Below, piece after piece: positions 3 to 24,165 of a stretch of DNA of 24,165 nt. A model generated the notes under the pieces. That model had not been told where the DNA came from, made no database searches, and saw nothing but the letters and a program-made list of their open reading frames with translations. The DNA comes from a virus: positions 1-24,165 of the IMG/VR virus record IMGVR_UViG_3300018417_000062, one strand, 5' to 3'. The stretch's first letter is position 1. Each line of letters starts with the position of its first letter. The position numbers and the translations under genes are program-made.

Positions 3-1145
3 TTTTCATTTAAAAATCATTTGTCGGGTGTTAAAATAGGTGTGATGTATGATGTTCGAGTAACCCATTTATCGATAGGACAAACTAATGATGAGTGGGA
101 AAAAAACAGAATCTTATTTACTGAAAGGTTTAAATCTGATTTACCTAAAAAACTACCTGAGTTGTTTGAAAACAAAAAGTTAAAAGTTCTATTAGGAGTT
201 TTAAACTTCCAAGGGCTTACAGGTTCTGAAATTTCAACTATAGAGTTAGCTAAGGGATTATCTAAAAAAGGATGTGATGTTTCTGTTATATCATTTAACG
301 TAAGTAATCACTTTAAACAAGTATGTAATAATCACGGAATTAAGACATATCTTATGTCTGAACCACCTGGTTATAAGGTTGGGGATGGGTTATGGTCTAT
401 GAAAACCCCAAACGGGTTAAAGACATCTGAGAAAGGAAAACTATATAGATTAAAGAATGTTAATTTTGACATCATACAAACAAACCACACACCAATAACT
501 GAAAGGTTATTAGAACTTTATCCCGAAAAAAAATTCGTAACAATTGTAAGGTCAGAAATTATAGACTTAGAAAATCCTGTTGTTAATGATAATGTAAAAG
601 GGTATATCGCAATAAGGCCTTCAATTAAAGATTACTTAATCAGTGATTTCGATTTAGATAGTGATTCTATTGAGGTTATATATAATCCTTTCGACGATAC
701 TCGATTTAAACCAAAAACTAAACAGGAAATAAGTAAAAAAATAACCTTATTTGTTGGTACTATGGATTACCTTAGAAAAAGTAGTATTGAAGATTTAATA
801 ACATCTTTAGATAAAAGTAAGGAAGAGTTGTGGTTAGTCGGTAAGGACACCATGGGATATGCGAGTAAATATGGGGAGATGTATGACCACGTAAATTACT
901 ACCCTCCGACAGAAAAAATAGAAGATTTTTATCATCAGTGTGATGTAACCGCAGGTATAATGTTAGGTAGAACTACTATTGAGGGTTACTTATGTGGTAA
1001 GCCAGGTATAATCTACAACGTGGATAAGGAAGGAAATATCAAAGGGAAAGAGTTCACTGAAGTTCCTTTAGATATTGAAAAATTCAATAGAGATACTATT
1101 ATAAATAAATTTAAAAATTTCTATATAAAAAAAATAAATGAGTAA
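3..1145 (+). CDS. Glycosyltransferase, 5'-truncated at window edge; possible GT2 tail plus GT-B (GT4-like) domain
   Basis: The reading frame is open back to the first bases of the window, so the true start lies upstream; a TTG at 21 is in frame but nothing supports it as the start. The part before about nt 170 (HLSIGQTNDEWEKNRILF) resembles the C-terminal end of GT2-type glycosyltransferases. From about nt 180 a second domain begins with the GT-B pattern of a beta strand, glycine loop and helix (LLGVLNFQGLTGSEISTIEL). Its C-terminal half has LFVGTMDYLRK near nt 750 and GYLCGKPGIIYNVD near nt 985, typical of the nucleotide-sugar-binding half of GT4-like enzymes. I infer a two-domain sugar transferase. 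It overlaps the next gene by 8 nt and starts a run of glycan-related genes. Acceptor and sugar are unknown. Confidence 0.72.
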   Translation, partial: FSFKNHLSGVKIGVMYDVRVTHLSIGQTNDEWEKNRILFTERFKSDLPKKLPELFENKKLKVLLGVLNFQGLTGSEISTIELAKGLSKKGCDVSVISFNVSNHFKQVCNNHGIKTYLMSEPPGYKVGDGLWSMKTPNGLKTSEKGKLYRLKNVNFDIIQTNHTPITERLLELYPEKKFVTIVRSEIIDLENPVVNDNVKGYIAIRPSIKDYLISDFDLDSDSIEVIYNPFDDTRFKPKTKQEISKKITLFVGTMDYLRKSSIEDLITSLDKSKEELWLVGKDTMGYASKYGEMYDHVNYYPPTEKIEDFYHQCDVTAGIMLGRTTIEGYLCGKPGIIYNVDKEGNIKGKEFTEVPLDIEKFNRDTIINKFKNFYIKKINE

Positions 1146-1770
1146 TATTGTAGATAAGATTTTTATCGGAGGTTTTGGTGGTACTGGAAGTAGGGTAGTT
1201 GCTGAAATATTTGACTCTTTTGGTTATTATGTAAGTAGGGAGACAGGGAAGGATTCTATCGACTTTGGTGCAGGTGAATTTGTTAATCAATTTGATTTGT
1301 CTTGGAGAACAAAAAATTTCACATCACTTGTTACATATATGAATAGAAAAATACTCAATAATAAACATTTCGCACTTAAACATGGTCATTTTATGTTTAT
1401 AGATAAAGAACTTAGAAAGTTTTATCCTGATTGTAAAACTGTATATGTGATGAGACATCCCGTAGACGCCGCTGCTGGTGATTCTAAAAAATTTTATATG
1501 CCCCATGTGAAATACGGAGGTCTTAAAAATACTTTAGACAATAAAATTAAATATTATATTGAAAAATCTATTCAAGCATATGAGGAAGCAGATTTAATAA
1601 TAAAGTATGAAGAACTTTGTAATGACACCGAGAATCAGTTAAAAAGAATCAGAAAATTTACAGGTAAACATGACAGAGATTTACCAGAAATAGACATAAA
1701 AATCTCAAAGAATACTGGAATACACAAAGAATTATATGATAAATATGATACGTCAATGTTGGGATACTAA
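1138..1770 (+). CDS. Sulfotransferase-like protein (PAPS-binding P-loop)
   Basis: This 210-aa protein carries the two hallmarks of the sulfotransferase fold. Near the N-terminus (residues 8-19) is a P-loop-like 5'-phosphosulfate loop, IFIGGFGGTGSR, followed by a helix. At residues 103-118 is a 3'-phosphate-binding segment, VYVMRHPVDAAAGDSK, with the conserved Arg-x-Pro and a downstream Ser. A later IIKYEELC segment also fits Sulfotransfer-type proteins. Family members move sulfate from PAPS to hydroxyls or amines, often on sugars. The ATG overlaps the upstream glycosyltransferase by 8 nt, so the pair is probably translated together. Among glycosyltransferases, the likeliest job is sulfating a phage- or host-made glycan; that is inference. 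A nucleotide kinase-like P-loop protein is the alternative, but the RHP segment favours sulfotransferase. Confidence 0.68.
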   Translation: MSNIVDKIFIGGFGGTGSRVVAEIFDSFGYYVSRETGKDSIDFGAGEFVNQFDLSWRTKNFTSLVTYMNRKILNNKHFALKHGHFMFIDKELRKFYPDCKTVYVMRHPVDAAAGDSKKFYMPHVKYGGLKNTLDNKIKYYIEKSIQAYEEADLIIKYEELCNDTENQLKRIRKFTGKHDRDLPEIDIKISKNTGIHKELYDKYDTSMLGY

Positions 1771-1781
1771 AATTAAAAATT

Positions 1782-2465
1782 ATGAATATTAATATAACAA
1801 ATAACCCTTCTAAATTTTATATAGATAAAATAAACAATAAGGAAAATTTTTCGTTTACGAGATGGGGAGATGGTGAGTGGTTTTGTACGTGGGGTGTGTC
1901 TGGTCGAAACACTGATAGTCATGAATATTTTCCTGAACTTAGAAGTGGCTTAAATAAGGCACTTAAAAACGACAAAGGTTACTACAAGGCAATATGGAAT
2001 ATAACACATGGACAAATTGCAAGAATATTAAATCCACTAACAAATTTTCTAAATCAAGAAAATATTATAGTTGACTGGGTTAACGCCGGAATATGGGAAG
2101 ACCTTGTTTTGAAAGGTGGTATTGAAGAATTGATTGAATCACTAGAAAAAAGAAATTTTGTAATAGTTTCTAACGATAGTTTAAGAGATTTAAACGTAAA
2201 ATATACTGATTTTATCTCAGTTCCTTTAGTAAATTGTTTCTTAGATAAAGAAAGAATTAAAAAAGAAATGATAGATATCTCAGAAAAATATGACAATGTG
2301 GTTTTTGGTATGTCTTCCTCTATGGCAACAAATGTTATAGTGGATGAGTTATATGATGTAATAGGTGATAAATGTAGTATGATAGATTTTGGTTCTATAT
2401 GGGACCCGTTTGTCGGAAGAAATACGAGAGGATACCATAAAAATTATGTAAAAATAAAGTTATGA
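1782..2465 (+). CDS. GT-D-type glycosyltransferase-like protein (DUF1792-like)
   Basis: The 227-aa protein has the motif FSFTRWGDGEW at residues 23-33. This matches the Arg-x-Gly-Asp-Gly-Glu signature of the GT-D fold (DUF1792) family, whose Asp-x-Glu binds metal and UDP-sugar. The C-terminal region (VVFGMSSSMATNVIVDEL, then SMIDFGSIWDPF) fits the second half of that Rossmann-like domain, which usually ends in a D-x-G-S-x-x-D-P segment. Known members extend O-linked glycans on bacterial surface adhesins. Here it sits between a sulfotransferase-like and a fucosyltransferase-like gene, and its stop overlaps the next ATG (ATGA). I infer a role in assembling the same glycan. Sugar specificity cannot be read from sequence. 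Confidence 0.62.
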   Translation: MNINITNNPSKFYIDKINNKENFSFTRWGDGEWFCTWGVSGRNTDSHEYFPELRSGLNKALKNDKGYYKAIWNITHGQIARILNPLTNFLNQENIIVDWVNAGIWEDLVLKGGIEELIESLEKRNFVIVSNDSLRDLNVKYTDFISVPLVNCFLDKERIKKEMIDISEKYDNVVFGMSSSMATNVIVDELYDVIGDKCSMIDFGSIWDPFVGRNTRGYHKNYVKIKL

Positions 2466-3172
2466 TTAATTGTATACCCTATGGTGGTATATCTAATCGG
2501 ATGAAATGTATAATTTCGTCAATCGCAGAATATGAAAAAATAAACCTACAGTGGGACCCTAAACCATCTGTTGGTGGTGTTAGATGTGAATTTTCAGATT
2601 TATATGAAAACGTTTTTAAATGTGACTATAATAAAAGTGTATCAGATTGTCAGTTTATACACACTAATATGAACACCCACAATACCAATATTGAAAAGGG
2701 GGATATTGACCCTAATCTACAGCAAAAATACATCAAAGTAATAAATGATTTACAACCCATAAATTATATAAAAGAAAGAGTGTCTATTGAAAAAGACGTT
2801 TTAGGTGAGTTTGATACTGTAGCTGTTAGAACGTTTAAAAGTTTTCAAAGAGAGTATAAGTCGTGGGGATATAAATTTAACATAGAAAAGTTATATAACT
2901 ATATGGATAATATTAAGGGTAAAATATTATTAACTTGCGATGATGAGGATACAGTACATCATCTAAAAAAGAGATATGATGTGCACACTACTTTTAAAAG
3001 AACAGAATTTGGGGACTTTTCAAGTGTAGAAGGAATGCAAGATATATTAGTCGATTTATATCTTGGTGGTTTATCTAAAAATATATATGGAACTAAGGAA
3101 AGTAGTTTTACGGAAATGCAGTGGTGGTTAGGTCAATGTAAACCTAATTATATAAACATGGATTTACATTAA
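2462..3172 (+). CDS. Fucosyltransferase-like (NodZ/GT23- or GT11-like) GT-B protein
   Basis: The 236-aa product begins with MINCIPYGGISNRMKCIIS, close to the G-G-[LI]-x-N-R-[ML] loop found at the N-terminus of alpha-fucosyltransferases and related GT-B enzymes. The C-terminal half has the expected second Rossmann-like domain: ILLTCDDEDTVHHLKKRY (about residues 155-172) and, later, DILVDLYLGGLSKNIYGT followed by SSFTEMQWWLG. The last stretch matches the family's usual donor-binding S-[ST]-F-[ST]-E segment. It overlaps the preceding gene by 4 nt and is followed by 32 nt of A/T-rich sequence before phoH. The class assignment is reasonably supported. The exact donor (GDP-fucose or another sugar nucleotide) is not. 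Confidence 0.55.
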   Translation: MINCIPYGGISNRMKCIISSIAEYEKINLQWDPKPSVGGVRCEFSDLYENVFKCDYNKSVSDCQFIHTNMNTHNTNIEKGDIDPNLQQKYIKVINDLQPINYIKERVSIEKDVLGEFDTVAVRTFKSFQREYKSWGYKFNIEKLYNYMDNIKGKILLTCDDEDTVHHLKKRYDVHTTFKRTEFGDFSSVEGMQDILVDLYLGGLSKNIYGTKESSFTEMQWWLGQCKPNYINMDLH

Positions 3173-3204
3173 TTAAAAAAAGATTAAATTTTAAAAAAAA
3201 TTAC

Positions 3205-3888
3205 ATGCCATACAAAGTAGTTAAGAAAGAAGAGATAAAAAGTATAATTGGAAAAGTTTCAAGGAAGAAGTTTTTATCTGAAAATCAAAAAGTATATTAT
3301 AATCAATTAATAGATAATGAAATAACTATATGTTCTGGACCCGCGGGTGTAGGTAAATCTTATGTCGCTATGAGAGCGGCAATAGATTTATTAATGGATG
3401 ATACAAACTCATATGAAAAAATTATTATAGTTAGACCGGCTGTTGAGGCTGAGGAAAAATTAGGTTCCTTACCTGGTAATTTAGAAGAAAAACTAGACCC
3501 ATATATATTCCCATCGTATTATCTTTTAAATAAAATAATAGGAAAAGAATCTAGAGAAAAGTTAAAACAAAATGATGTTATTGAGGTGTTTGCATTAGCA
3601 TACATGAGAGGTATGAACATAGATAACTCAATACTAATTTTTGAAGAAGCTCAAAACTCAACACCGTCACAAATGAAATTGTTACTTACTCGTATTGGGT
3701 TTAATTCTAAGTTTTTTATATCCGGTGATGTTGAACAAACTGATAGATATAGAGATAAGACACAATCAGGTTTATATGATGCTTTAAATAGATTTAGAGA
3801 AATAGAAAGAATCGGTGTGTTTGAGTTTGAGAATAAGGATGTAATTAGAAATCCTTTGATAAGTAAGATTTTAGATAAGTACGATTAA
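3205..3888 (+). CDS. phoH: PhoH-like ATPase
   Basis: The 227-aa protein is a clear PhoH-family P-loop NTPase. Walker A is GPAGVGKS at residues 45-52, followed by a helix. The family-specific IIIVRPAVEAEEKLGSLPG lies at 73-91, Walker B ILIFEEAQNSTPSQMK at 143-158, and the FFISGDVEQTD sensor-like segment at 170-180. Length is typical of phage PhoH, which lacks the extra N-terminal domain of many bacterial forms. phoH is a common auxiliary gene in marine phages. Its biochemical role is unsettled, with RNA-related ATPase or helicase activity often suggested. The leader is A/T-rich without a Shine-Dalgarno sequence, and the stop overlaps the next start as TAATG. I see no Pho-box that would argue for phosphate control. 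Confidence 0.93.
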   Translation: MPYKVVKKEEIKSIIGKVSRKKFLSENQKVYYNQLIDNEITICSGPAGVGKSYVAMRAAIDLLMDDTNSYEKIIIVRPAVEAEEKLGSLPGNLEEKLDPYIFPSYYLLNKIIGKESREKLKQNDVIEVFALAYMRGMNIDNSILIFEEAQNSTPSQMKLLLTRIGFNSKFFISGDVEQTDRYRDKTQSGLYDALNRFREIERIGVFEFENKDVIRNPLISKILDKYD

Positions 3889-4529
3889 TGAAAATTGCAT
3901 TTGATTTAAATGGTGTAATTAGAGATGTTTTTCTAAAGACTGAGCAGGTTTATACTAAATTCTATTTAGAAGAAAAGGACGATGAGGTTGTATCTAAATA
4001 CAACGAGGAAACCGAAGAATGGGAAGAGGATAATAAAACAGACGTTTTCGAATATGGATTAGAATTACCCGTCACTTCCATGAATTTAATAGACCACTTT
4101 AAATTCGAGACTCCCGAAGACCTATACAACTTTTTTTATGTTGATTTTCCTATGAACATTTTTGGTCACAGTCCGTCAATAAGTGGTAATACATTTAATA
4201 TTTTAAACGACTTATATGTTGATTATCGAGATGAAAATGAAATTTATATTATATCAGATGAAATCGGTAAGTCTAAACCGGCAACGTTGTTTTTCTTATC
4301 TAAATATGGATGTTTAGTGGAAAACATTAAATTTTATTCTAAGTCTACTTTAGTGAATACTTTTGACGAGTTTGATATTATTATTACATCAAACCCGGAT
4401 TTTTTATCAAAAGATTCAAATAGTAAAAAAATTATAAAAGTTAACACAACTTACAATCAGGATTATGAATCCGACTTTACGATTGATAATATTTCGGAAG
4501 TTAATGATATATTTAAAAAAATAATTTAA
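3888..4529 (+). CDS. HAD-like hydrolase with altered motif I
   Basis: The 213-aa protein starts MKIAFDLNGVIRD, a HAD-superfamily motif I except that the second acidic residue is Asn (D6-x-N8 instead of D-x-D). Motif II/III-like elements follow at IYIISDEIGKSKPAT (about 119-133), with Ser123 and a Lys at 128 or 130. FDIIITSNPDFLS (about 162-174) takes the place of the acidic motif IV. A charged, Glu-rich segment at about 36-52 looks like a cap-region insertion. HAD proteins are mostly phosphatases or nucleotidases. Losing the second Asp, the general acid/base, suggests weak phosphatase activity or a binding role. Translation is probably coupled to phoH through TAATG, and the gene lies next to glycosyltransferases. 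The exact substrate is unknown. Confidence 0.6.
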   Translation: MKIAFDLNGVIRDVFLKTEQVYTKFYLEEKDDEVVSKYNEETEEWEEDNKTDVFEYGLELPVTSMNLIDHFKFETPEDLYNFFYVDFPMNIFGHSPSISGNTFNILNDLYVDYRDENEIYIISDEIGKSKPATLFFLSKYGCLVENIKFYSKSTLVNTFDEFDIIITSNPDFLSKDSNSKKIIKVNTTYNQDYESDFTIDNISEVNDIFKKII

Positions 4530-4531
4530 TA

Positions 4532-4801
4532 ATGTTAGACGTTTTAGGTGAACTATATTATATAGATTTAGATAGTGTTAGTAATACTATCGATATGTCT
4601 GATGACAATTTTTCAGGTGAAACTGAACAAACCATAAATTTGGTGTCTTTTGAAGTTATAAAAATGATGTTAGAGATTATAATGACGGAAAGAGAAGAGA
4701 TAGATAATAATTTGGGTGTCCACAATACGAAAGATTTAAGTATTCCTTTTAGGATTGCTTTTAATACTTTATTAAAACATCAAATATTAAAACATTTATA
4801 A
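4532..4801 (+). CDS. Small conserved-looking protein, function unknown
   Basis: An 89-aa acidic protein starting MLDVLGELYYIDLDSVS, packed between the HAD-like gene (2 nt upstream) and a glycosyltransferase (2 nt downstream). The predicted content is an N-terminal beta-like strand followed by helices. A long helix spans about residues 37-58 (FEVIKMMLEIIMTEREEI), and a second lies at the C-terminus (FRIAFNTLLKHQILKHL). There are no cysteines, no transmembrane segment and no signal peptide. I do not recognise a named family. Codon use and spacing match its neighbours, so I treat it as a real gene. Confidence 0.7.
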   Translation: MLDVLGELYYIDLDSVSNTIDMSDDNFSGETEQTINLVSFEVIKMMLEIIMTEREEIDNNLGVHNTKDLSIPFRIAFNTLLKHQILKHL

Positions 4802-4803
4802 AA

Positions 4804-5868
4804 ATGAATGAAGAAACAATATTAAAAGTAGAACAATCTGTTAAAAATTTATCAGATAAAAGTTGTCGAATTTATTTTTTGTGTCAAGACACAAAAGGTA
4901 ATGCAAAAGCAGGTGTTAAAATGATATATGATATGGCATTAACACTTAAGAATGATGGTTTTAATACCATAATAATGCACGAAAAAAATGACTATACAGG
5001 TGTAGAATCTTGGTTAGGTGAGGAGTATATGAATATTCCTCATTCTTCTATTGAAAATCAGGATTTAAAGGTGTCTCCTGAAGATTTTATAGTTATTCCT
5101 GAAATATATGGTCATGTTATGGAACAGATATCTAAATTATCTTGTGCAAAAATTGTTTTATGTCAAGCATACGACCACATGTTAGAAACATTACAACCTG
5201 GTACATCTTGGACCTCACACGGATTTAATAAATGTATAACCACAAACGAAAAACAAAAAGAGTATGTTGGTGAGATTATGACAAATATTAGTTTTGATGT
5301 GATTGAGCCACTAATTAGTGACGAGTTCTCACCTAAAGATTTACCGTCTAAACCAATAGTTTCGATACATACAAGAGAACAAAGAGATACGATGAAAATA
5401 ATAAAAACCTTTTATCTAAAGTATCCACAATATAGATGGATTACTTTTAGAGATATGAGAGGTTTGTCCCCTAAAGAATTTTCAGAGTATTTAAAAGATT
5501 CATTTGTGTCTGTATGGGTTGATGATACTTCAGGTTTTGGCACATTCCCATTAGAGTCTATGATTACTAGGACACCAGTTATTGGAAAAGTTCCTAATCT
5601 TAAACCTGAATGGTTAAATGATGAGAATGGTGTTTGGACATATGAACAAAACAACATTCACGATATTTTAGCAGAGTTTATTCAAAATTGGTTGGAAGAT
5701 AATATTAATGAGGACTTATATGATAAAGGTGTTGAAACCGCTCAGAAATATAATAACAAAGATGAATTTGATAGTAAGGTTATATCTCTGTTTGATACAT
5801 ATATATCTCAAAGAAAAGAGGTCTTTGAGAGTCAGTTAGAGAAAATAAAAGTTGAAGAAGAAGGATAA
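4804..5868 (+). CDS. GT-B fold glycosyltransferase (GT4-like)
   Basis: The 354-aa protein has a GT-B layout. The N-terminal half begins with a strand and helix, IYFLCQDTKGNAKAGVKMIYDMALTL in sense (about residues 22-47), where the K-x-G-x-K-x-x-Y-D-M part resembles the acceptor-side helix of GT4 enzymes. A linker strand then leads into the donor-binding half: PIVSIHTREQRDTMKII and ITFRDMRGLSPKEFSEYL. It continues to the signature SGFGTFPLESMITRTPVIG (about 243-261), which matches the GT4 segment of a small-residue loop, catalytic-region Glu and proline strand. The last 40 residues are charged and helical. It is spaced 2 nt from genes on both sides. No signal peptide or membrane helix is visible, so it is cytoplasmic. 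Sugar and acceptor are unknown. Confidence 0.75.
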   Translation: MNEETILKVEQSVKNLSDKSCRIYFLCQDTKGNAKAGVKMIYDMALTLKNDGFNTIIMHEKNDYTGVESWLGEEYMNIPHSSIENQDLKVSPEDFIVIPEIYGHVMEQISKLSCAKIVLCQAYDHMLETLQPGTSWTSHGFNKCITTNEKQKEYVGEIMTNISFDVIEPLISDEFSPKDLPSKPIVSIHTREQRDTMKIIKTFYLKYPQYRWITFRDMRGLSPKEFSEYLKDSFVSVWVDDTSGFGTFPLESMITRTPVIGKVPNLKPEWLNDENGVWTYEQNNIHDILAEFIQNWLEDNINEDLYDKGVETAQKYNNKDEFDSKVISLFDTYISQRKEVFESQLEKIKVEEEG

Positions 5869-5870
5869 AA

Positions 5871-6701
5871 ATGGAAAATTTAAATATATCTATAGTATTA
5901 CCAATAGAGTCATCAAAGCATAAAAATTTTGATTTACTTTTCAAATCTTGTATTACATCAATTACAAATCAAGTTAAAGAATGTCCTATAAGAGGAAAGT
6001 GTTTGGAAGACGTTGAGTTAGTTCTTGTGCATTCAGGAGAAGAGTCCTTAGAGTCATATATAAGTAATTTTGATTTTAGTGGTATAACTACTAATATCAT
6101 ACATAATACAGGTGAAACTGACTTTTGTAGTCAGATAAATTTGGGTGTTGAAAAATCAACTCATGAATGGGTAAGTATTTTTGAATTTGATGATGAGTAT
6201 TCAAGTATTTGGTTTAAGAATGTTTCTAGATATATCGATTCATACCCTGAGGTTAAAGCTTTTTTACCTTTAGTTGTTGATACCGATGAGAAAGGGGTGT
6301 TCGCTGGATTCACAAATGAAGCTACGTTTGCCGCCAACATGAATAGTGAGATTGGATACCTAACAAACGAAGTTTTACTAAACTATCAAAATTTTCAAAC
6401 AAGTGGTATGGTATTTAAAAAGTCACTATTCGATGATTTTGGAGGGTTTAAAAAATCAATTAGGTTAACTTTTGTATATGAGTTATTACTAAGATTAACT
6501 TATAATTCAACAAAAATTATGACTATTCCAAGAATAGGGTATAAACATTCTAATATGAGAGAAGGTTCAGTATTTTGGAACTACAAATTTGGTTCTACTC
6601 CGCTTACAGAAGATGAGGTCGCTTTTTGGATTGATTCAGCTAAAAAAGAACATTTCTTTAAAGAAGATAGAAATATAAAGTATGAATTAGGTGAAGTTTA
6701 A
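5871..6701 (+). CDS. GT2-like (GT-A fold) glycosyltransferase
   Basis: The 276-aa protein starts with the GT2 pattern LNISIVLPIESSKHKNFDLLFKS and then IVLP-type nucleotide-binding strands. VELVLVHSG appears at about 47-55, and NTGETDFCSQINLGVEKSTHEW in sense (about 80-101). WVSIFEFDDEYSSIWF at 101-116 contains the acidic D-x-D-like metal site (FDDE). The C-terminal part (QTSGMVFKKSLFDDFGGF) matches the family's acceptor-side loop, which normally follows a G-x-x-x-F-R-R or similar segment. No membrane segment is seen. The downstream sigma gene overlaps its stop as TAATG. It is likely one step in the same glycan pathway as the other transferases here. Confidence 0.75.
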   Translation: MENLNISIVLPIESSKHKNFDLLFKSCITSITNQVKECPIRGKCLEDVELVLVHSGEESLESYISNFDFSGITTNIIHNTGETDFCSQINLGVEKSTHEWVSIFEFDDEYSSIWFKNVSRYIDSYPEVKAFLPLVVDTDEKGVFAGFTNEATFAANMNSEIGYLTNEVLLNYQNFQTSGMVFKKSLFDDFGGFKKSIRLTFVYELLLRLTYNSTKIMTIPRIGYKHSNMREGSVFWNYKFGSTPLTEDEVAFWIDSAKKEHFFKEDRNIKYELGEV

Positions 6702-7444
6702 TGACGATTTCTGGAGATAATAAAAATTCCGAAGTCAAAAAACGAGGGAGAAAGGCTAAATCTCAAAATTATTTTGATGTGAGGGAAGAAAAAGCAGTAA
6801 GAATGTTTCTTACTGCTTCTACGTGGAATGAAAAAAATCAAATTTATAATGAGTATTTAAGGGCTCCTTTAGACAAAATGATTGAGTCTATTATTAGGAG
6901 ATATAAGTTATATCGAAAAAATATGGACTTTGTTGATATCCACAACGATACTCATTCATTTTTAATGACTAAAGTTGAAAAGTTCAAACCCGACAAAAAC
7001 AAAAAAGCCTATTCCTATTTTGGTACTATATGTAAAAATTATCTTATGGGTCAAATTATTAAAGACCAAAAAGAACAAAATAGAAAAATATCGTATGAGG
7101 ATATTACAACTAAGTTAGAGAGTAGACCTGATATGATATATTATTTGGAGCACGAAAAAGTAACTGCGGAACAAGTAATAAAAGAGTTTTTAAAAGAACT
7201 AGAAAAATTTATAGAAGATTCTTCTTTAAATAATAATGAAATAAAATTAGGATATGCTCTATTAGAGTTATTTGATAATTATGAAGAAATTTTTATAGGT
7301 ACTGACAATAATAAGTTTAATAAAAACATTATCTTACTTTCTTTGCGTGAAATGACTAATATGAGTACTAAAGAGATTAGAACTTCTATGAAAAAATTTA
7401 AAAATTTGTATTTTGATTTAACAGTTAAGCTTAATAATTTATAA
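6701..7444 (+). CDS. gp55: gp55-like sigma factor for late transcription
   Basis: The 247-aa protein has a basic N-terminus (KKRGRKAK) followed by a sigma-region-2-like helical block at about 28-125. RMFLTASTWNEKNQIYNEYL leads into KMIESIIRRYKLYRK. The stretch FLMTKVEKFKPDKNKKAYSY then runs into FGTICKNYLMGQII, the region-2.3/2.4 equivalent that melts and reads the -10 DNA. This is the arrangement of T4 gp55, which directs host RNA polymerase to late promoters. At 247 aa it is longer than T4 gp55 (185 aa); the additional residues are mainly the C-terminal helical half. It overlaps the glycosyltransferase by 1 nt and is the last gene before the structural block. No gp33 or gp45 homologue is in this window. 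Confidence 0.78.
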   Translation: MTISGDNKNSEVKKRGRKAKSQNYFDVREEKAVRMFLTASTWNEKNQIYNEYLRAPLDKMIESIIRRYKLYRKNMDFVDIHNDTHSFLMTKVEKFKPDKNKKAYSYFGTICKNYLMGQIIKDQKEQNRKISYEDITTKLESRPDMIYYLEHEKVTAEQVIKEFLKELEKFIEDSSLNNNEIKLGYALLELFDNYEEIFIGTDNNKFNKNIILLSLREMTNMSTKEIRTSMKKFKNLYFDLTVKLNNL

Positions 7445-7458
7445 AACCCATAATTAAA

Positions 7459-7465
7459 TATTTAT
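7459..7465 (+). promoter_or_regulatory. TATTTAT upstream motif, candidate late promoter element
   Basis: TATTTAT in coding orientation, 6 nt before the ATG at 7472, in the only intergenic gap between the sigma gene and the structural genes. It matches the element found upstream of seven other units. If it acts as a -10 box, the transcript would be nearly leaderless. Confidence 0.45.
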
Positions 7466-15268: not shown

Positions 15269-17062
15269 TTATCTTAACTCTCTTAGGTCGAATGTTCTAA
15301 CACCATCAACTGTAATCTTACCGTAGAAACGGTTGTTCACCATCTTCTTAGCGTATCTTGTCATGATACCCTTGATTGGTGTAAAGTTGAATGGGTTGTA
15401 CATTGTTGGAGTCAACTGTAGAGGTACGTATGGAGCGTATACATATCCTGTGTCAAGTAATGATGAACCCTTGTGTCCCAACAATACTGTGTTTGGTGGG
15501 AAGTATGGGTCACGGTAAACTTGATATCTACCTGATAATGTACCAACTCTTTCGATACCCATGTTGTAGTTGTCTTGGTCAGGAGCCGCGTTTGAAACGT
15601 GGAAGTACTCAAGGTCATCGAAGATTGCTGAAATCTCTGAAGATACAACAATCCAGTTAGCACCACCTCTTAGAGTTGATTTATGGATTTGTGCAGAAAT
15701 CTGATTGATTGCAGTAATCAATGTCTGATTCCAATCCTTTTGGTTGTAGTTGACAGAACCGTTAGATACTCTCTTCCAACCGTTGTAGTCCCATCTTAAT
15801 GACCAAGCCGCACCTTTTCTTAAGTCTCTTAAAATCTCACGGTCAATCTCTGCTGCAACCTGCTCTGACAACAATGCTGTCAATTCAGCTTCCGCATCAA
15901 TGTTGTGGAATGCAGAGACGTCTTGTGCGAGTTCTGGTGACCACTGAGCTCTTAACTTTCTTTCTGTAACAGAAACAGTAACAGCTTCTAAGTCGAATGA
16001 AACTTCACCGATAGCGTCTTCGAATTCTAATGTCTCGTATACTCTGTATGAACCATAGAAAGTATCTCCTGAAGCAACTGTTGAACCTGTGTATCCGTCG
16101 ATTGATTCAGTTCCAATTTCAACTGGTGTAGAGAAGTCAACCTCCAAGTAGATTCTACCTTCAACGTCACATACGTTGTCGTACTTTCCACCAGGACCTG
16201 GGTAAGAACCACTGTAGAAAGTAGTCTGTTGCTCGTTACCATAGTTTACAATACCCTTACCGTACTTCTGAGTTACAACTCTGAAGTTCCAGAATTCAGT
16301 GCTTGAACCTAATCCCGCTTGGTCAGAAACTTCTAGTGAAGCCAAGAAGTCTTCAGTATCCATTTCTTGTCCGTCAGGACCGATTAATTTACTAGCACCT
16401 GCAGATGAGAATCCTGTCATCATAAAGATTAATGACCTTACATTACCTGACGCAACACTACCTGTACCACCATTAGCGACTGATAATGCGTTTCCTAATG
16501 TAGTTGCAGTTAAAACACCACCGTTCCATACAACAGGAATTAATGTTGGTGTTTGCTCTTCGTAAGCACCCTTTGAGTAATCGAACAACCCAGCTGGGTC
16601 TGAATTTGGTGTACTACCTTCGTAGAAACGGTCGTACAAGTTAGTTGAATTTGTGTAACCTGAATCTGTTGTAGATGGACCGTTTGGTGCTCCGAATGGA
16701 GGAACGTGTGTTCCATCAGCGTTTCTGTTCTGAATCTTTGGAACAAAGTAGAACAACTTACCGATTGGTAGGTTCATAGCTTGTACTGAAACGATATCGT
16801 TAGCCAATAACTTAGAGAAAACTCTTCTTACTATTGGGAAAACAACTGTTTCGAAAGAACCTGAACTGTCAGATGCCGCCGCTTCGTTTATCAAATATGA
16901 TGCTTGGTTCTCATATAACTGAGCCATATTTTCTTTAGTGTGGCCTTTAAGACCATCGAGGAACCCTAATTTGTCCCACTTGTTAATTGTGTCCTCCTTG
17001 ATAACCTTAAGGTGCTTAAGACCGATGTTACCAACTAGACCTGATTCTAATAATGCTCCCAT
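15269..17062 (-). CDS. gp23: Major capsid protein (gp23-like)
   Basis: The 597-aa protein is a T4 gp23 homologue by motif and context. After an N-terminal helical arm come ETVVFPIVRRVFSKLLANDI (about 71-90) and VSVQAMNLPIGKLFYFVP, the conserved start of the HK97-type fold in gp23 relatives. The C-terminus has TRYAKKMVNNRFYGKITVDG. SYLINE|AAASDS at residues 55-66 fits a T4-type prohead protease site, so about 60 residues should be removed on maturation; T4 gp23 loses 65. The gene is visibly less AT-rich than its neighbours, as expected for a highly translated protein. The start has no Shine-Dalgarno sequence. It is probably co-transcribed with the scaffold 27 nt upstream. Confidence 0.93.
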   Translation of the reverse strand: MGALLESGLVGNIGLKHLKVIKEDTINKWDKLGFLDGLKGHTKENMAQLYENQASYLINEAAASDSSGSFETVVFPIVRRVFSKLLANDIVSVQAMNLPIGKLFYFVPKIQNRNADGTHVPPFGAPNGPSTTDSGYTNSTNLYDRFYEGSTPNSDPAGLFDYSKGAYEEQTPTLIPVVWNGGVLTATTLGNALSVANGGTGSVASGNVRSLIFMMTGFSSAGASKLIGPDGQEMDTEDFLASLEVSDQAGLGSSTEFWNFRVVTQKYGKGIVNYGNEQQTTFYSGSYPGPGGKYDNVCDVEGRIYLEVDFSTPVEIGTESIDGYTGSTVASGDTFYGSYRVYETLEFEDAIGEVSFDLEAVTVSVTERKLRAQWSPELAQDVSAFHNIDAEAELTALLSEQVAAEIDREILRDLRKGAAWSLRWDYNGWKRVSNGSVNYNQKDWNQTLITAINQISAQIHKSTLRGGANWIVVSSEISAIFDDLEYFHVSNAAPDQDNYNMGIERVGTLSGRYQVYRDPYFPPNTVLLGHKGSSLLDTGYVYAPYVPLQLTPTMYNPFNFTPIKGIMTRYAKKMVNNRFYGKITVDGVRTFDLRELR

Positions 17063-17089: not shown

Positions 17090-18670
17090 TTATTTTAATT
17101 TACTCATTAAATCTCTCATTCTTAAGAACTGAGGATTTTCATAAGTTTTACTTTCGATAAGATTGTTTGCTGAACCTTTAGTTGGAGTTTTAGTAACTTT
17201 AGATTGTACTGATTCAGTAACAACGTTAGTTTCTTTTCCACCTAAATCTTCTTTAACTGTCTTATATAAAGATTTCGATTCTTTAAGAGTCTCGACACCA
17301 TCGAAACGTCTTAAAATATTTATTTTCTCTTGCTTCGTAGTAGAATGCTCAGTGAATAAACGAGTAGCGTAAGCTAAATTAGAATTGAAAACAGCCACTT
17401 CGTTAAGTTTCTCTTTGAAAACATTAAGTGCCTTACGGTACTCTTCATTTTTCTCTCTAAGTTGTTTAACTTCTGCTTTTAATTCTTCATTTTCTCTTAC
17501 CGCAGGTCTTAATCTACCCTTAGCATATTTTCTCACCTCTTCGGGTGCTGATTTAGCGTTTGGGTACTTTCTTAAAGACGCATTAGTTCTAGCAGTTTCA
17601 GTGGTTTCACCTTCGTTACTTTCGTAATCTCTGTGTGACTTAGACTCATCGCCTTTGTTTCCACCGTAATCACCTTCGTTAGTTTCGTAATCTCTGTGTG
17701 ACTTAGACTCATCGCCTTTGTTTCCACCGTAATCACCTTCGTTAGTTTCGTAATCTCTGTGGGACTTAGACTCATCGCCTTTGTTTCCACCGTAATCACC
17801 TTCGTTAGTTTCGTAATCTCTGTGTGACTTAGACTCATCGCCTTTGTTTCCACCATACTTACCTTCGTTAGTTTCGTAATCTCTGTGTGACCTAGACTCA
17901 TCGCCTTTGTTTCCACCATACTTACCTTCGTTAGTTTCGTAATCTCTGTGGGACTTAGACTCATCGCCTTTGTTTCCACCGTAATCACCTTCACTCATTT
18001 CTTCTTCGTCAGCTTCTTCTTCCTCACCAATCTCGATTTCATATACCACTTCTTCTTCTGTTTCGTCTTCCCCTAAATGGTCACCCATTGTTTCGGAAAC
18101 TTCTTCTTCTGATTCACCTAACTGAATAACGTATTCAGTATCGGTCTCTTCGTCTGATAAATGAACGTCACCACCGTCTTGTTTTACAATGATACCGTCT
18201 TCTTCACCCATAGCTTTAAATACCTTTAGTATTTCGTCATCAGAAGCTGCGGTTAAATCGAGAGGTAAAAGAACTTCTTCTTCATCATCAACTTCCAAGT
18301 CGTCACCAGGTAAATCGGTCATTAACATTTCCTCATCACCCAAGTCTAACTCTTCGTCGTTATCAGATTCCATATCGTCACCCATATCAAGACCTAAATC
18401 TTCAAGGGCATCTTCCATGTCGTCTTCTGCATCATCAACTTCAACATCTTCAATGTCAATCTCTTCCTGTTCGGACATTTCAACATTTTCTTCAGTCTCC
18501 ATTTCAGACACTTCTTCAACCTCTTCTTCATTAAGAGATTCTTTTACTAATTCACTGATTTCTTCCTTCATAGTAGAAGCAAGTATTCCTTTTGCATTAT
18601 TAGTTATGGCTTCTTGTAGATTTTCCATCTGCAATAAAGCTTCTTCAACTAGGTTTTTTTTGTCTGCCAT
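17090..18670 (-). CDS. gp22: Prohead core scaffold protein (gp22-like) with 6 x 21-aa repeats
   Basis: I chose the ATG at 18670 (MADKKNLVEEALLQMENLQE; 526 aa); the TTG 15 nt upstream is less likely. Residues 48-227 are extremely acidic (Glu/Asp). Residues 228-353 are six nearly identical 21-residue repeats beginning GDYGGNKGDES. From about 385 comes the gp22-type coiled coil, ENEELKAEVKQLREKNEEYR, then NLAYATRLFTEHSTTKQEKI and INILRRFDGVETLKESKSLY, which is diagnostic of T4-like scaffolds. The C-terminal tip, ENPQFLRMRDLMSKLK, probably contacts the capsid protein. Scaffolds of this type are degraded by the gp21 protease. It lies directly upstream of the capsid gene. The repeat block is unusual for gp22. 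Confidence 0.87.
   Translation of the reverse strand: MADKKNLVEEALLQMENLQEAITNNAKGILASTMKEEISELVKESLNEEEVEEVSEMETEENVEMSEQEEIDIEDVEVDDAEDDMEDALEDLGLDMGDDMESDNDEELDLGDEEMLMTDLPGDDLEVDDEEEVLLPLDLTAASDDEILKVFKAMGEEDGIIVKQDGGDVHLSDEETDTEYVIQLGESEEEVSETMGDHLGEDETEEEVVYEIEIGEEEEADEEEMSEGDYGGNKGDESKSHRDYETNEGKYGGNKGDESRSHRDYETNEGKYGGNKGDESKSHRDYETNEGDYGGNKGDESKSHRDYETNEGDYGGNKGDESKSHRDYETNEGDYGGNKGDESKSHRDYESNEGETTETARTNASLRKYPNAKSAPEEVRKYAKGRLRPAVRENEELKAEVKQLREKNEEYRKALNVFKEKLNEVAVFNSNLAYATRLFTEHSTTKQEKINILRRFDGVETLKESKSLYKTVKEDLGGKETNVVTESVQSKVTKTPTKGSANNLIESKTYENPQFLRMRDLMSKLK
17612..17989 (-). repeat. Six tandem 63-bp in-frame repeats within the scaffold gene
   Basis: Exactly six 63-bp units, 378 bp, with only a few differing bases per unit. 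The encoded unit varies at Asp/Lys (position 2), Lys/Arg (position 12) and Thr/Ser (position 19). Units 1 and 4 in coding order share a silent TCC serine codon, which hints at duplication of a three-unit block. Confidence 0.93.
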
Positions 18671-19034: not shown

Positions 19035-19757
19035 TTAATAACCTAAATAATCGGAAAGTCTTTTCATTAAGTCAACACTTTTACCTAAACCACCATCAAT
19101 CTTTGGTTCTTGTGACCTTAACTGAGTCTCTTCCTCTAAACTTTCTTCATACTTACCCTTATCATTTTTATCTAAGAATAGATATGCACCTGGTGTAGAT
19201 GGAGATGAAACTAAATCAAAACAGATTAATTCAAAATCGTCTTGTACTTCATTTCTTTCACCTTTCTTTACTAATGAGCCAACACCACGAGAAGAAACAC
19301 CCATAGTGACTCCTTGTCTCATTAAATTAGCCGCTTGGTCACCTGGACACGAAACTACACCCTCTGTATGAAATCCAGGTGAGGTCAATAATTTAATCTT
19401 TCCCATAAGTGTGTTACCTTCCCACCATACGTCTGTGATTAAGTGTGAGACACGGTCCAAATCTATCAAAGATGATTCAGGGTGGTTAAGTTCAGATATT
19501 GATAATCCTTTTTCGATTGCTTTTTTATAAACGTCAGCTTCTCTACGTAAAATCTTTTCAGGATACACTCTACCGTTTCTATTGGGGGTATCGTATTTTT
19601 GTAACGTCGCGTAAAACTCAAATGGTTTTGAATGGTCTAATTGACCATAAGACTCTTTTATAACTTGTGCATTACGGCTATCGTTAGGATTTACAAATCC
19701 GGCATCCCACTCTACTAAGATACCTTTACCTGAATCGTTTGGTCCTAAAATCTTCAT
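19035..19757 (-). CDS. gp21: Prohead protease (gp21-like)
   Basis: The 240-aa protein has the gp21/herpes-assemblin-type serine protease pattern. LQKYDTPNRNGRVYPEKIL lies at 52-70, and ELNHPESSLIDLDRVSHLI at 89-107 carries the catalytic His (H92). The nucleophile segment TMGVSSRGVGS is at 151-161, with Ser155 or Ser156 as the nucleophile. FDLVSSPSTPGAYL (180-193) is the family's usual continuation. The charged C-terminal tail (SLEEETQLRSQEPK) is where such proteases self-cleave. It cuts scaffold and capsid precursors during head maturation. It sits two genes upstream of the scaffold, as part of the terminase-to-DUF4494 unit, with its own TATTTAT motif 11 nt before the ATG. Confidence 0.92.
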   Translation of the reverse strand: MKILGPNDSGKGILVEWDAGFVNPNDSRNAQVIKESYGQLDHSKPFEFYATLQKYDTPNRNGRVYPEKILRREADVYKKAIEKGLSISELNHPESSLIDLDRVSHLITDVWWEGNTLMGKIKLLTSPGFHTEGVVSCPGDQAANLMRQGVTMGVSSRGVGSLVKKGERNEVQDDFELICFDLVSSPSTPGAYLFLDKNDKGKYEESLEEETQLRSQEPKIDGGLGKSVDLMKRLSDYLGY

Positions 19758-19777: not shown

Positions 19778-20221
19778 TCAGACCACTTCTTTTGTCGTTT
19801 TACTCTTGTGTATTTCAAAATACTTCATACCTCTTAAGCAATCGGTATACACTGCTTGAATGACTTTTTTAACATTTTCTTTTAGTTTTGTTGATTTAAA
19901 ATCTAAGTGATTTTTAAGATATAAAGTAATTTCTAAGTTCATAAAACTTCTTTTACCTCTTTGTATTCCACTACTTCTTAAATCTAAATCCACTATATTA
20001 TGTTTTTCGAACACTTCGGTATTTAAAACTTCTAATAAAACGTGTTTAATATTGCGTTCCATAGTCCCTGTCGCTCTATCCCAATTCTCAAACTCTTTTA
20101 TGGGTTCTACCCATGATTGTAAAACAATATAAACTGTTTTTAAATTTTTGGCATCTACTGTGCCGTAATAACATTTTGCGTCATTGAATATTTTTAATTG
20201 TGACGTTTTTCCTTTTTTCAT
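19778..20221 (-). CDS. 147-aa protein in the head-gene cluster, unknown
   Basis: A basic, mixed alpha/beta protein starting MKKGKTSQLKIFNDAKCYYG. Central strand-rich text (TVYIVLQSWVEPIKEFENWD) leads to a second half with strands and helices (SFMNLEITLYLKNHLDFKST, then VKKVIQAVYTDCLRGMKYFE). No membrane segment is seen. I do not recognise a family. It lies directly before the prohead protease, where T4 carries small core genes (67, 68), so a core or neck-type role is possible, but the sequence does not show it. Upstream it is divergent from the bS21 gene. A TATAAATA on its own strand lies 73 nt before the ATG. Confidence 0.68.
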   Translation of the reverse strand: MKKGKTSQLKIFNDAKCYYGTVDAKNLKTVYIVLQSWVEPIKEFENWDRATGTMERNIKHVLLEVLNTEVFEKHNIVDLDLRSSGIQRGKRSFMNLEITLYLKNHLDFKSTKLKENVKKVIQAVYTDCLRGMKYFEIHKSKTTKEVV

Positions 20222-20265
20222 ATAAATCCATACTTACAAAGTTTATTGATTTGTATTAAATATAC

Positions 20266-20273
20266 TATATTTG
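20266..20273 (+). promoter_or_regulatory. Bacteroidetes-type promoter -7 box upstream of bS21
   Basis: TATATTTG matches the TAnnTTTG host consensus. A TTG at 20246-20248 is 17 nt upstream, slightly shorter than usual. It would drive the bS21 gene with a leader of roughly 40 nt. Confidence 0.42.
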
Positions 20274-20294
20274 TAGTTATATGTCAAAAACATA

Positions 20295-20301
20295 TATTTA
20301 T
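20295..20301 (+). promoter_or_regulatory. TATTTAT motif upstream of bS21
   Basis: TATTTAT in coding orientation, 18 nt before the bS21 ATG and downstream of the host-type box, so the gene may have two promoters. On the minus strand the same bases read ATAAATA, as part of TATAAATA (20295-20302). Confidence 0.42.
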
Positions 20302-20319
20302 AGATAAACAAATTTATAT

Positions 20320-20505
20320 ATGCTAATTATTAAGGTAAAAAATAAGAACATAGAGGCGGCTCTTAAAAACTACAAATATAAAGTTTATAAGACTAAGCAA
20401 CTTCAGAACCTTAATAAAAATAAGGAGTATACAAAACCCTCTGAAGAAAAAAGAGAGAGTCAAAAAAAGGCTATATACCTGAACAAAAAAAGAAACGACC
20501 TTTAA
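20320..20505 (+). CDS. rpsU: Phage-encoded ribosomal protein bS21
   Basis: The 61-aa protein reads as bS21. MLIIKVKNKNIEAALKNYKY at the start matches the family opening, and the MLII form is that of Bacteroidetes. KVYKTKQLQNLNKNKEYTKP and SEEKRESQKKAIYLNKKRND follow the basic helices of bS21, with the conserved K-P-S-x-x-[KR]-R and the A-x-Y near residue 53. Length is typical of a Bacteroidetes bS21. Many phages carry bS21, which can enter host ribosomes near the anti-Shine-Dalgarno end of 16S rRNA. Here it is the only plus-strand gene inside the minus-strand head module, with its own promoter-like elements and no Shine-Dalgarno sequence. Confidence 0.86.
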   Translation: MLIIKVKNKNIEAALKNYKYKVYKTKQLQNLNKNKEYTKPSEEKRESQKKAIYLNKKRNDL

Positions 20506-20540: not shown

Positions 20541-20771
20541 TTATTCCTCGACACCTTTAGTTCTTGAAAATTTTTCAAGTGTGGTAAATCCTAACCCCGC
20601 ACCTACAATATACATCATACCGTCCCACACATATTTTTGTAACGGTATATCCATAAAAATGTTAGCAACAAAGGCAATACACATCATGAAAAATGCGATT
20701 ATGGTAACAAACCTTTTTGATGACTTTTGACCATCAACGTCACCTAATAATGATGTAAAAAATCTTTTCAT
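20541..20771 (-). CDS. Small two-helix membrane protein, possible holin
   Basis: The 76-aa protein begins MKRFFTSLLGDVDGQKSSKR and has two hydrophobic segments: VTIIAFFMMCIAFVANIFM (about 22-40) and WDGMMYIVGAGLGFTTL (about 49-65). The basic N-terminus and KFSRTKG C-terminus flank them. Small size and two membrane helices suit a holin, and the SSKRF-type segment before the first helix occurs in phage membrane proteins. No lysis gene is visible beside it, so holin is a possibility only. Its ATG overlaps the stop of the 244-aa gene (TAATG). Confidence 0.6.
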   Translation of the reverse strand: MKRFFTSLLGDVDGQKSSKRFVTIIAFFMMCIAFVANIFMDIPLQKYVWDGMMYIVGAGLGFTTLEKFSRTKGVEE

Positions 20772-21550: not shown

Positions 21551-23431
21551 TTAGTCATTTAGAAGTGAATTCAACTTTTTTTCTATTTCCCCTAAAGACT
21601 GTCTACCTTTAGATAAGTCTAATATACTTTTACCTTTTATTAAGTCGTCCTCGACTAATAAATCTAAGTCTTTATTTCTTACTAGTCTTTCGGTTGGAGT
21701 TTCTTCGGGTGCAGTGTCTCCCCCTCCTTCATCACCACCTAAATCACCACCTAAGTCACCACCTAAGTCACCACCTAAGTCACCACCTAAGTCACCACCT
21801 AAGTCACCACCTAAGTCACCACCTAAGTCACCTGTACCTGAATCAGTTGTTTCATCACCTAATGGGTCACCTCCTTCACCTGGTTTATTACCATATAGTT
21901 TATCTATATTTGCGAATACACCAGTTTTACTAATAACTTCGGATGTCTTTTCAAGTTCGGCAGCAACCGCTTTTTCGATTCTTTGTTGTTGTAAGTCTAA
22001 TTTAATTTCCTCGTCACTAAAACCAAGTATGTGCTTCTTAGCCCAAGATGAGGAAACGGGTAAGATACCAGTTCCTGGGTCAGTAACAGCATCTCTATAT
22101 AATTGAATTTTTTGTTGCCATTGCTCAACTTTGAGTAAGTCCGCTTGTGTAGAAGGATTAGTAAGACCTAAAGTAAAATTACCTAATTCATCTTCAAAAC
22201 CTAAAAGGTAAAGGTGTATAATTGCAATTTTATTTAGTTCTTGAATCATCGACTTTTGAATTCTGTTTATAGTTCTAGCAAATCTTATATCCTGTAATGA
22301 TAAGTTTTTACCGTCACCAACAACCTCTTCAAATCCTAAGAATGCTTTGGGTACTCTTAGAGATGTTAAAAGTTTCTTCTGAATGTATTCTATATCTGCA
22401 ATTTCAGATAGGTTTTGTGCACCTGGCAATGTATCTATAGGGTTAGGTGCGTTAGGGTCTCTAACGGGAATAAAATAGTCTTGGTCGACCGCCATTTGAT
22501 TGTATCTTAAATCGACATTTCCGTTACTCGAATCTACAACTTGGTCTCTCTTAAATTTGTTTGCCACTCTATTTACGTATGGTTCAACATCCTTGTCGTC
22601 CATATTTCCAACAAATACTTTAAATACTCTTCTTTCAGGTGCTCGCGATGTTCTATAGATTAACATGGCATCTTCTGATAGTATTAACTGTTTCCAAATT
22701 CTTCTACCTTTTTCCAACATAGATGTCCCGTATGGTAGTTTTCTATCGTCACCTAATAATCTAAAGTGAGCAATCTCCCAAGTATTAAATTCCATGTCTT
22801 TATTTTGCCATAAAAACTTTAGCGCATCATTCTCCGTATTTGTTGAGTTACGTTCAGGCTTCATTTTCATACCTCTCTCCTGTCTATTAATCTCAATATT
22901 AGGTAGTTGTTGTGCACCCATAATACCTTTTTCAGGGTCTAATTTCAGATAAACAAAATTGTCACCATACTTACATGTATTTCTTGTCCACATAGGTAAG
23001 TTAGTATTAATATCTAATCTGTTATTAAACAAATCACCTAAAACAGATTTAATTCTTTTACTTTCCGAATATATCTGTAACATATAACCGTCTTCATCGG
23101 GAGTAGTAGATTCTTCTGAGTATATATCTAAGGCGGCGGAAATTTCAGGAGTATACTCCATACTTTCATAATCATAAAAGGAGGCTAAACGAGTTGGTTC
23201 ATAATAAACTGCTTGTGTATAAAGATTGTTTTCAATCTTTTGCCATTGTTGACCTAAATAAAGGGTTTGTTGTGCTTGTAACTTCTCTCTCTCATACTCT
23301 TGTTTATTAGTTGTCTTGAGTATTTGTTTTTTGTCGAAGTTATATACGGGTGGTTGTTGGTCCAAAGTTGAATCGGGACCAAATACTTTTGTTAACCTTT
23401 GCCAAATCGTATAATTATTCTTTTCCGCCAT
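21551..23431 (-). CDS. gp20: Portal protein (gp20-like) with GDLG-repeat C-terminus
   Basis: The 626-aa protein shows the gp20 signature. MEYTPEISAALDIYSEESTT lies at about 91-110, KYGDNFVYLKLDPEKG at 154-169 and IYRTSRAPERRVFKVFVGN at 258-276, the most diagnostic stretch. VPKAFLGFEEVVG follows at 360-372. Twelve copies form the dodecameric head vertex through which DNA passes, and the terminase docks on it. Residues 534-565 are eight tandem GDLG units inside an acidic, Gly-rich tail that the T4 protein lacks. The last 50 residues are helical again. It follows the terminase gene with no gp18/gp19 between them. Confidence 0.93.
   Translation of the reverse strand: MAEKNNYTIWQRLTKVFGPDSTLDQQPPVYNFDKKQILKTTNKQEYEREKLQAQQTLYLGQQWQKIENNLYTQAVYYEPTRLASFYDYESMEYTPEISAALDIYSEESTTPDEDGYMLQIYSESKRIKSVLGDLFNNRLDINTNLPMWTRNTCKYGDNFVYLKLDPEKGIMGAQQLPNIEINRQERGMKMKPERNSTNTENDALKFLWQNKDMEFNTWEIAHFRLLGDDRKLPYGTSMLEKGRRIWKQLILSEDAMLIYRTSRAPERRVFKVFVGNMDDKDVEPYVNRVANKFKRDQVVDSSNGNVDLRYNQMAVDQDYFIPVRDPNAPNPIDTLPGAQNLSEIADIEYIQKKLLTSLRVPKAFLGFEEVVGDGKNLSLQDIRFARTINRIQKSMIQELNKIAIIHLYLLGFEDELGNFTLGLTNPSTQADLLKVEQWQQKIQLYRDAVTDPGTGILPVSSSWAKKHILGFSDEEIKLDLQQQRIEKAVAAELEKTSEVISKTGVFANIDKLYGNKPGEGGDPLGDETTDSGTGDLGGDLGGDLGGDLGGDLGGDLGGDLGGDLGGDEGGGDTAPEETPTERLVRNKDLDLLVEDDLIKGKSILDLSKGRQSLGEIEKKLNSLLND
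21734..21831 (-). repeat. Tandem 12-bp repeats encoding GDLG units in portal C-terminus
   Basis: Eight head-to-tail copies of a 12-bp unit (CCACCTAAGTCA on the plus strand), one with a single base change. Each copy encodes Gly-Asp-Leu-Gly, so changes in copy number keep the frame. Confidence 0.9.
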
Positions 23432-23474: not shown

Positions 23475-24165
23475 TTATCTTCTTCTACCTCCAAATAACC
23501 AGTTATATTGTTCGTAATCTTGTTTTGTGATTCCATTTGGTCGGTAGTGATTGTTATTGTTTGGCATGACGGGTAAACCAGGATTAAAGTCTTTAGATGA
23601 ATTTTTAACAGGAGTTTCATTGACCATCCAACTCTCCATCATCGCCTTGGTCTGTTCAGTAACCTTTTCAAGTTGTGTAAATGAGTTTTCACCAACATAT
23701 ATCGCCATAGCCATTGCCATGATAAGGTCGTCGTGTTGCCCTTTAATGTGGTCAGGTCTTCCGTTAATATATACAAACGTATTTAATTCATTCATTAAAC
23801 GAGAAGAACGAACAATAAAGTTATGTCTTAAAGCTTCTTCAAATGCCGCAACAATTTGAACACGTTTTGAATTAAAATTAAGACCTGGTATTTTTTCTAT
23901 TACTTTTGGGTTGTATTTCCATTTGTCAGCGGCATTTATACCATCAACATACAAATCCTTATAATTCATTTCCTGAAGTTTACGAGCGGTAGAAACTCCC
24001 ATACCCCCAGTGATATCAATCACAACAAACGCAGAATACATAGTCGCCCATTTAAACGCGACTTCAGCGGCAACATCAGGTGGTACCTTACCCAAATACT
24101 CTAGTACCTGTTCTCTCTCATCAAAATCTATAATACAGAATGTTGTAAAGTCCTCACTATCACCA
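23475..24165 (-). CDS. gp17: Terminase large subunit, C-terminal nuclease part (gp17-like), 5'-truncated
   Basis: The frame is open to the window edge, so the ATPase half and the true start are outside; the first visible residues are GDSEDFTTFCIIDF. This is the RNase-H-like nuclease domain of phage large terminases. The first catalytic acid sits in GDSEDFTTF, the second in FVVIDITGGMGVSTARKLQE, and the third in IKGQHDDLIMAMAMAIYVG. The tail (YEQYNWLFGGRRR) is a common C-terminal end. The enzyme cuts concatemeric DNA and, with its ATPase half, pumps it through the portal encoded next door. The gene is transcribed ahead of the portal and head genes. Confidence 0.88.
   Translation of the reverse strand, partial: GDSEDFTTFCIIDFDEREQVLEYLGKVPPDVAAEVAFKWATMYSAFVVIDITGGMGVSTARKLQEMNYKDLYVDGINAADKWKYNPKVIEKIPGLNFNSKRVQIVAAFEEALRHNFIVRSSRLMNELNTFVYINGRPDHIKGQHDDLIMAMAMAIYVGENSFTQLEKVTEQTKAMMESWMVNETPVKNSSKDFNPGLPVMPNNNNHYRPNGITKQDYEQYNWLFGGRRR

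Follow-up and report, generated by a model that had tools for sequence, protein, structure and literature searches.

The window, that is, the whole stretch of viral DNA analyzed here (24,165 bases), contains a T4-like head gene cluster on the minus strand. This cluster includes the genes of the major capsid protein (gp23-like, 15269..17062; Pfam Gp23, 1.5e-72), the prohead protease (gp21-like, 19035..19757; Pfam Peptidase_S77, 2.4e-22), the portal protein (gp20-like, 21551..23431; Pfam Portal_T4, 9.1e-78), and the large terminase, truncated at the window end so that its C-terminal part remains (23475..24095; PHROG 2, 1.4e-4). Only one gene of the cluster lies on the plus strand, at 20320..20505, and it encodes, from an ATG start, a 61-aa homologue of the ribosomal protein bS21. 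It is flanked on one side by a divergent conserved gene of 147 aa (19778..20221, minus strand) and, on the other, by a gene for a small protein of 76 aa, membrane-like by inspection (20541..20771, minus strand). Rfam and tRNA searches of the whole window returned no matches. Two repeat-bearing stretches were also observed in the head cluster: six nearly identical repeats (YGGNKGDESKSHRDYETNEG) in a scaffold-like protein at 17572-18000(-), and a GGDL repeat tract near the portal protein C-terminus, at 21694-21933(-).

The translated product of the plus-strand ORF (MLIIKVKNKNIEAALKNYKYKVYKTKQLQNLNKNKEYTKPSEEKRESQKKAIYLNKKRNDL) scores 38.3 bits against PF01165 (Ribosomal_S21; E 1.1e-9) in a Pfam search, above the curated cut-off of 27. 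In NCBIfam, the equivalog cut-off of TIGR00030 is narrowly missed (25.7 vs 28.95 bits), and the gene is, therefore, classed under Pfam PF01165 rather than as a TIGR00030 equivalog. The top solved relatives in the PDB are the bS21 chains of 9i5v and 7jil, the latter being the Flavobacterium johnsoniae ribosome (PMC9976891). The AF2 model comprises three helices (pLDDT 85.1), and its eight PDB matches all come from ribosome entries, where they fall on bS21-type chains, with a TM-score of 0.64-0.66 against E. coli-type ribosome chains; given the very small size of the protein, the E-values of these matches are weak. Forty-eight distinct homologous proteins were found. Among relatives, the median dN/dS is 0.07 (14 pairs), synonymous changes exceeding non-synonymous ones about fourteen-fold, which indicates purifying selection and, together with the 48 homologues, shows that the ORF is not due to chance. 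It is a genuine phage bS21 of the Bacteroidota type.

Like F. johnsoniae bS21 (7jil; McNutt et al. 2023, PMC9976891), to which it is about 40% identical, the phage protein has an MLII start, a similar length, and the K51-A52-x-Y54 motif (F. johnsoniae numbering is used for aligned positions). In an alignment of ten host and phage sequences, K40, S42, R46, K51, A52, and Y54 are invariant. Phage Tyr53 (codon 20476..20478, plus strand) aligns with F. johnsoniae Tyr54, which stacks on A1534 of the 16S rRNA (PMC9976891). This tyrosine is found in 47/47 full-length members of the family and in 70/70 Flavobacteriaceae-type hosts, as well as in 41 of 47 other phage bS21 proteins. The original prediction of a bS21 homologue with a conserved tyrosine near residue 53 is thus borne out, by the PF01165 score and the bS21-type structural matches for the former, and by the alignment for the latter. 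The same alignment, nevertheless, gives a mixed picture as to residue conservation: the tyrosine and the K-A-x-Y motif are kept, but P5, R21, F23, D25, and G27, invariant in the sampled Flavobacteriaceae-type hosts, are altered in the phage family (D25, G27, and F23 being replaced by Y, K, and V, for example). The phage bS21 is, therefore, not simply a copy of the host protein. As far as can be judged from residues, conservation of the tyrosine favours an anti-Shine-Dalgarno (anti-SD) sequence that would be kept hidden rather than changed.

The putative phage promoter element of the gene, ATATTTAT (20294..20301, plus strand), lies 18 nt ahead of the ATG. The short A/T-rich leader region in between (20302..20319) has no SD and is almost unstructured (MFE -0.7 kcal/mol). 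This element is found upstream of 47/50 bS21 genes of the family, at 15-20 or 5-7 nt from the ATG, with one case between, at 12 nt. The shorter distance was observed in L028, L055, L060, L091, L092, and L099, for which a leaderless mRNA is possible. In a 270-kb relative (L229-L242), ATATTTAT was counted, within -30 to -11 of a gene start, 34 times on the coding strand vs 4 times on the reverse strand (p 3e-7), with two preferred ATATTTAT(A)-to-ATG spacings, 3-7 and 11-17 nt. These patterns point to ATATTTAT as a putative promoter specific to the phage, from which mRNAs with a very short leader or none would be made. If the element works as T4 late promoters do, transcription would start about 5 nt past it, yielding leaders of about 12 nt or none.

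In the window, ATATTTAT sites are found at 7458-7465(+) and in the leaders of the genes starting at 11597(+), 14733(-), 18670(-), 19757(-), 20320(+), 21505(-), and 23431(-). The element lies ahead of the protease, the portal, the scaffold-like protein, and other head or tail genes. It is absent from the cluster at the window's left (21-6701, plus strand), which groups glycosyltransferases, a sulfotransferase-like gene, and PhoH. Genes preceded by it in the 270-kb relative include those of the tail tube, baseplate, protease, adaptor, and lysin. This distribution supports the view that the element serves mostly virion genes. DnaB-like and UvsX-like genes carry it too in the 270-kb relative, which weakens its reading as a strictly late promoter. 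The T4-type late promoter TATAAATA was also considered, but its seven matches in the window are near chance, and more is learned from the reading on the coding strand, ATATTTAT. Next to the left-hand cluster, the gene at 6701-7444(+) encodes a 247-aa protein resembling, by eye, a small sigma factor (T4 gp55-like); it matches only PHROG 8271, weakly, and a PDB search gave no match.

The divergent neighbour has a promoter-like region of a different kind. A TTG (20285..20287, minus strand; -33-like) and TATATTTA (20257..20264, minus strand; -7-like) were recognized by comparison of upstream regions, TTG-N20 or N22-TAnnTTT being present in 38 of 41 distinct regions upstream of this gene. This arrangement resembles the -33/-7 promoter of Bacteroidota. 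In two relatives, L050 and L065, the bS21 ORF is missing together with ATATTTAT, but the divergent gene is retained along with the side that holds its promoter (TGTCAAAA, read on the bS21 strand); by inspection, a homologue of the 76-aa gene comes directly next. The joint loss of ORF and element indicates that ATATTTAT belongs to bS21, and the retained side that TTG-N20/22-TAnnTTT belongs to the divergent gene. A tree built from the divergent gene places L050 and L065 apart, L065 being beside L063 (support 98/92), which is consistent with two separate losses of bS21. Two other candidates for the bS21 promoter were set aside on these grounds. A Bacteroidota promoter, TTG-N17-TAnnTTTG (20246-20273), was dropped as the main candidate because it lies in a stretch that varies in relatives, where ATATTTAT is kept in 47/50 and vanishes with bS21 in L050 and L065. 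TGTCAAAA, considered as part of the bS21 promoter, remains in these bS21-less relatives and belongs to the divergent gene, as its -33 side. As to the product of this gene, its AF2 model (pLDDT 83.7) matches one protein confidently, an uncharacterized one from a myovirus, and neck or tail-completion proteins weakly, with no clear match to a solved fold. The gene persists in L050 and L065 and so does not need bS21; this persistence and the weak neck- or tail-completion-like matches weaken the idea of a dedicated bS21-exchange factor.

The claim that genes of the window generally lack an SD was confirmed. None of the 24 called genes has a core SD (AGGAG/GGAGG/GAGGT), and their leaders pair with the 16S tail, taken in its canonical form (that of the host may differ), at a mean energy of -1.03 kcal/mol, close to the -0.80 of shuffled leaders. 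Core SDs are found in 1/76 genes of a 71-kb close relative and in 3/243 genes of the 270-kb relative. In these counts, gene starts were set by a simple longest-ATG caller that may misplace single cases. The leader of the window bS21 itself has a pairing energy of -1.1 kcal/mol and, thus, no strong SD. The prediction of an SD-less phage bS21 gene holds for the window and for 43/50 distinct genes of its family, as well as for 44/45 other phage bS21 genes (one has a strong SD); it does not extend to the remaining 7/50. A subclade near that of the window (L026, L027, L046, L047, L048, L051, L057, and L062) carries AGGAG 7-9 nt upstream of bS21. There, by a conservative count, a core SD is found on bS21 in 6/6 cases vs 0/40 for other genes. 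Judged from these leaders, an SD on bS21 alone is the host rpsU pattern in miniature; no mention of it in a phage subclade was found in the literature cited here.

In F. johnsoniae, rpsU is translated, via its SD, by bS21-free ribosomes; Tyr54Ala or a C-terminal truncation of bS21 raises rpsU translation, and an SD mRNA is translated 3-fold better by Y54A ribosomes (PMC9976891). Among close relatives of F. johnsoniae bS21, all 77 distinct rpsU leaders have a strong SD (mean -19.5 kcal/mol), vs 7/50 in the phage family (Fisher p 7e-27). Unlike F. johnsoniae rpsU, the phage gene has no extended SD and, on leader comparison, is devoid of the control signal of Flavobacteriaceae rpsU. The notion that all hosts have an SD on rpsU had to be dropped, though, since a strong SD (threshold -7 kcal/mol) was found in only 10/32 leaders of a wider, non-random Flavobacteriales sample (best-scoring matches, about 30, from 99 genomes), the other 22 being without. 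SD autoregulation of bS21 is, hence, not universal in the order. The proposed escape of the phage gene from this control would apply to Flavobacteriaceae-type hosts; beyond them, it hinges on the host lineage and may be moot. In this best-scoring sample (L410-L438), the rpsU genes without a strong SD, about two thirds, include those of small-genome lineages.

Bacteroidetes T4-like phages with bS21 have already been described by Chen et al. 2022 (PMC9723584), who proposed that phage bS21 is built into the ribosomes of the host and gives phage mRNA an advantage late in infection; in such phages, bS21 is transcribed together with capsid genes. The window shares with them the position of bS21, which runs opposite to the head genes and is flanked by two hypothetical genes, in the vicinity of those of TerL, portal, prohead protease, and MCP, as well as the aromatic residue at position 54, the phage-specific N-terminal half, and the presence of PhoH. 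By position and co-occurrence, its neighbour is a candidate equivalent of their bS21_CN (fam498); the window itself is a 24-kb fragment. The substitution idea and the conservation of the tyrosine in such phages were, thus, published in 2022 (PMC9723584), and the central idea is mostly not new. What is added here are the leader contrast, the SD-bearing subclade, the promoter-like element, and the natural losses; a term search in PMC9723584 did not reveal any promoter or phage-bS21 leader analysis. The source record contains only virus sequence. A Bacteroidota host is likely, given the type of bS21, the group of phages already published, and the place of Flavobacterium phage vB_FspM_immuto among the annotated isolate phages with the closest capsid (about 42% identity). 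Microcystis phage Mel-JY01, however, has a capsid just as close, and its portal is slightly closer than that of immuto.

The reading that we consider fairly probable is that the phage bS21 replaces host bS21 in the 30S subunit, the anti-SD staying hidden and SD-free initiation continuing. The protein would enter host 30S subunits during infection, displacing host bS21, as suggested by analogy with the bS21 of pelagiphage HTVC008M, which enters E. coli ribosomes (Mizuno et al. 2019, PMC6375957; phage named in PMC9723584). That protein is also phage-encoded, but from a different host group (Pelagibacter). Once in place, Tyr53 would hold the 16S 3' tail on the platform, where Bacteroidia-type bS21 keeps it in a pocket with bS18 and bS6, and the anti-SD would stay hidden, and SD-free initiation would go on for both phage and host mRNAs. 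The bS21 mRNA would be short, SD-free, and, in some relatives, probably leaderless, and made from a phage-type promoter; its synthesis should, thus, not need bS21-free ribosomes, unlike that of Flavobacteriaceae rpsU. Ribosomes with viral bS21 were strongly impaired in vitro (Mizuno et al., PMC6375957), so that mere replacement may not be benign. The expected late timing of bS21 is uncertain, as ATATTTAT also precedes DnaB-like and UvsX-like genes.

An alternative explanation is that the phage supplies a dispensable, exchangeable ribosomal protein after synthesis by the host has ceased, initiation not being specifically affected. The loss of the gene in L050 and L065 fits this, and readily exchanged ribosomal proteins tend to be those that viruses encode (PMC6375957). 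Strong purifying selection, near-universal retention beside the divergent neighbour (209 loci with both), and the maintenance of phage-specific residues speak against it, making it rather unlikely. Another possibility gives weight to the leader contrast (77/77 vs 7/50) and to the retained tyrosine: phage bS21 would fill the 30S subunits, and host rpsU would be shut off because its SD needs bS21-free ribosomes, SD-free phage mRNA still being translated. The host circuit that this takeover relies on is established in F. johnsoniae (PMC9976891). It requires an rpsU SD in the host, found in only 10/32 of the best-match Flavobacteriales sample, and the phage subclade with an SD on bS21 would need a different kind of host to be reconciled with it, so that this explanation is deemed unlikely. 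Its extended form, in which phage bS21 silences host rpsU with its own SD-free or leaderless mRNA immune, and the SD-bearing subclade, having gained or kept its SD, instead senses bS21-free ribosomes, is slightly less likely still. Finally, an initiation switch, by which the altered N-terminal half, near the mRNA path, would favour phage over host leaders, appears improbable: its phage-specific residues are kept across the family, unlike in the sampled Flavobacteriaceae-type hosts, and Chen et al. 2022 (PMC9723584) also flagged the region as divergent, but drift after transfer could yield the same changes, and phage and host mRNAs are both SD-less, leaving no known leader feature to distinguish them.

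The proposed replacement of host bS21 with the anti-SD kept hidden is of interest because Bacteroidota ribosomes hide their anti-SD, bS21 being a lock on it and, in Flavobacteriaceae, being also autoregulated through it. A phage gene with the lock residue kept and the control signal absent offers a clean, testable handle on phage-induced changes in ribosome composition. The leader types found in nature (SD-free, probably leaderless, and SD-bearing) and the two natural losses constitute ready comparisons. On the host side, the Bacteroidota genomes G082, G089, G105, G103, G235, and G141 were observed to contain more than one gene for bS21 (two or three), and some of these genes are low-scoring paralogues.
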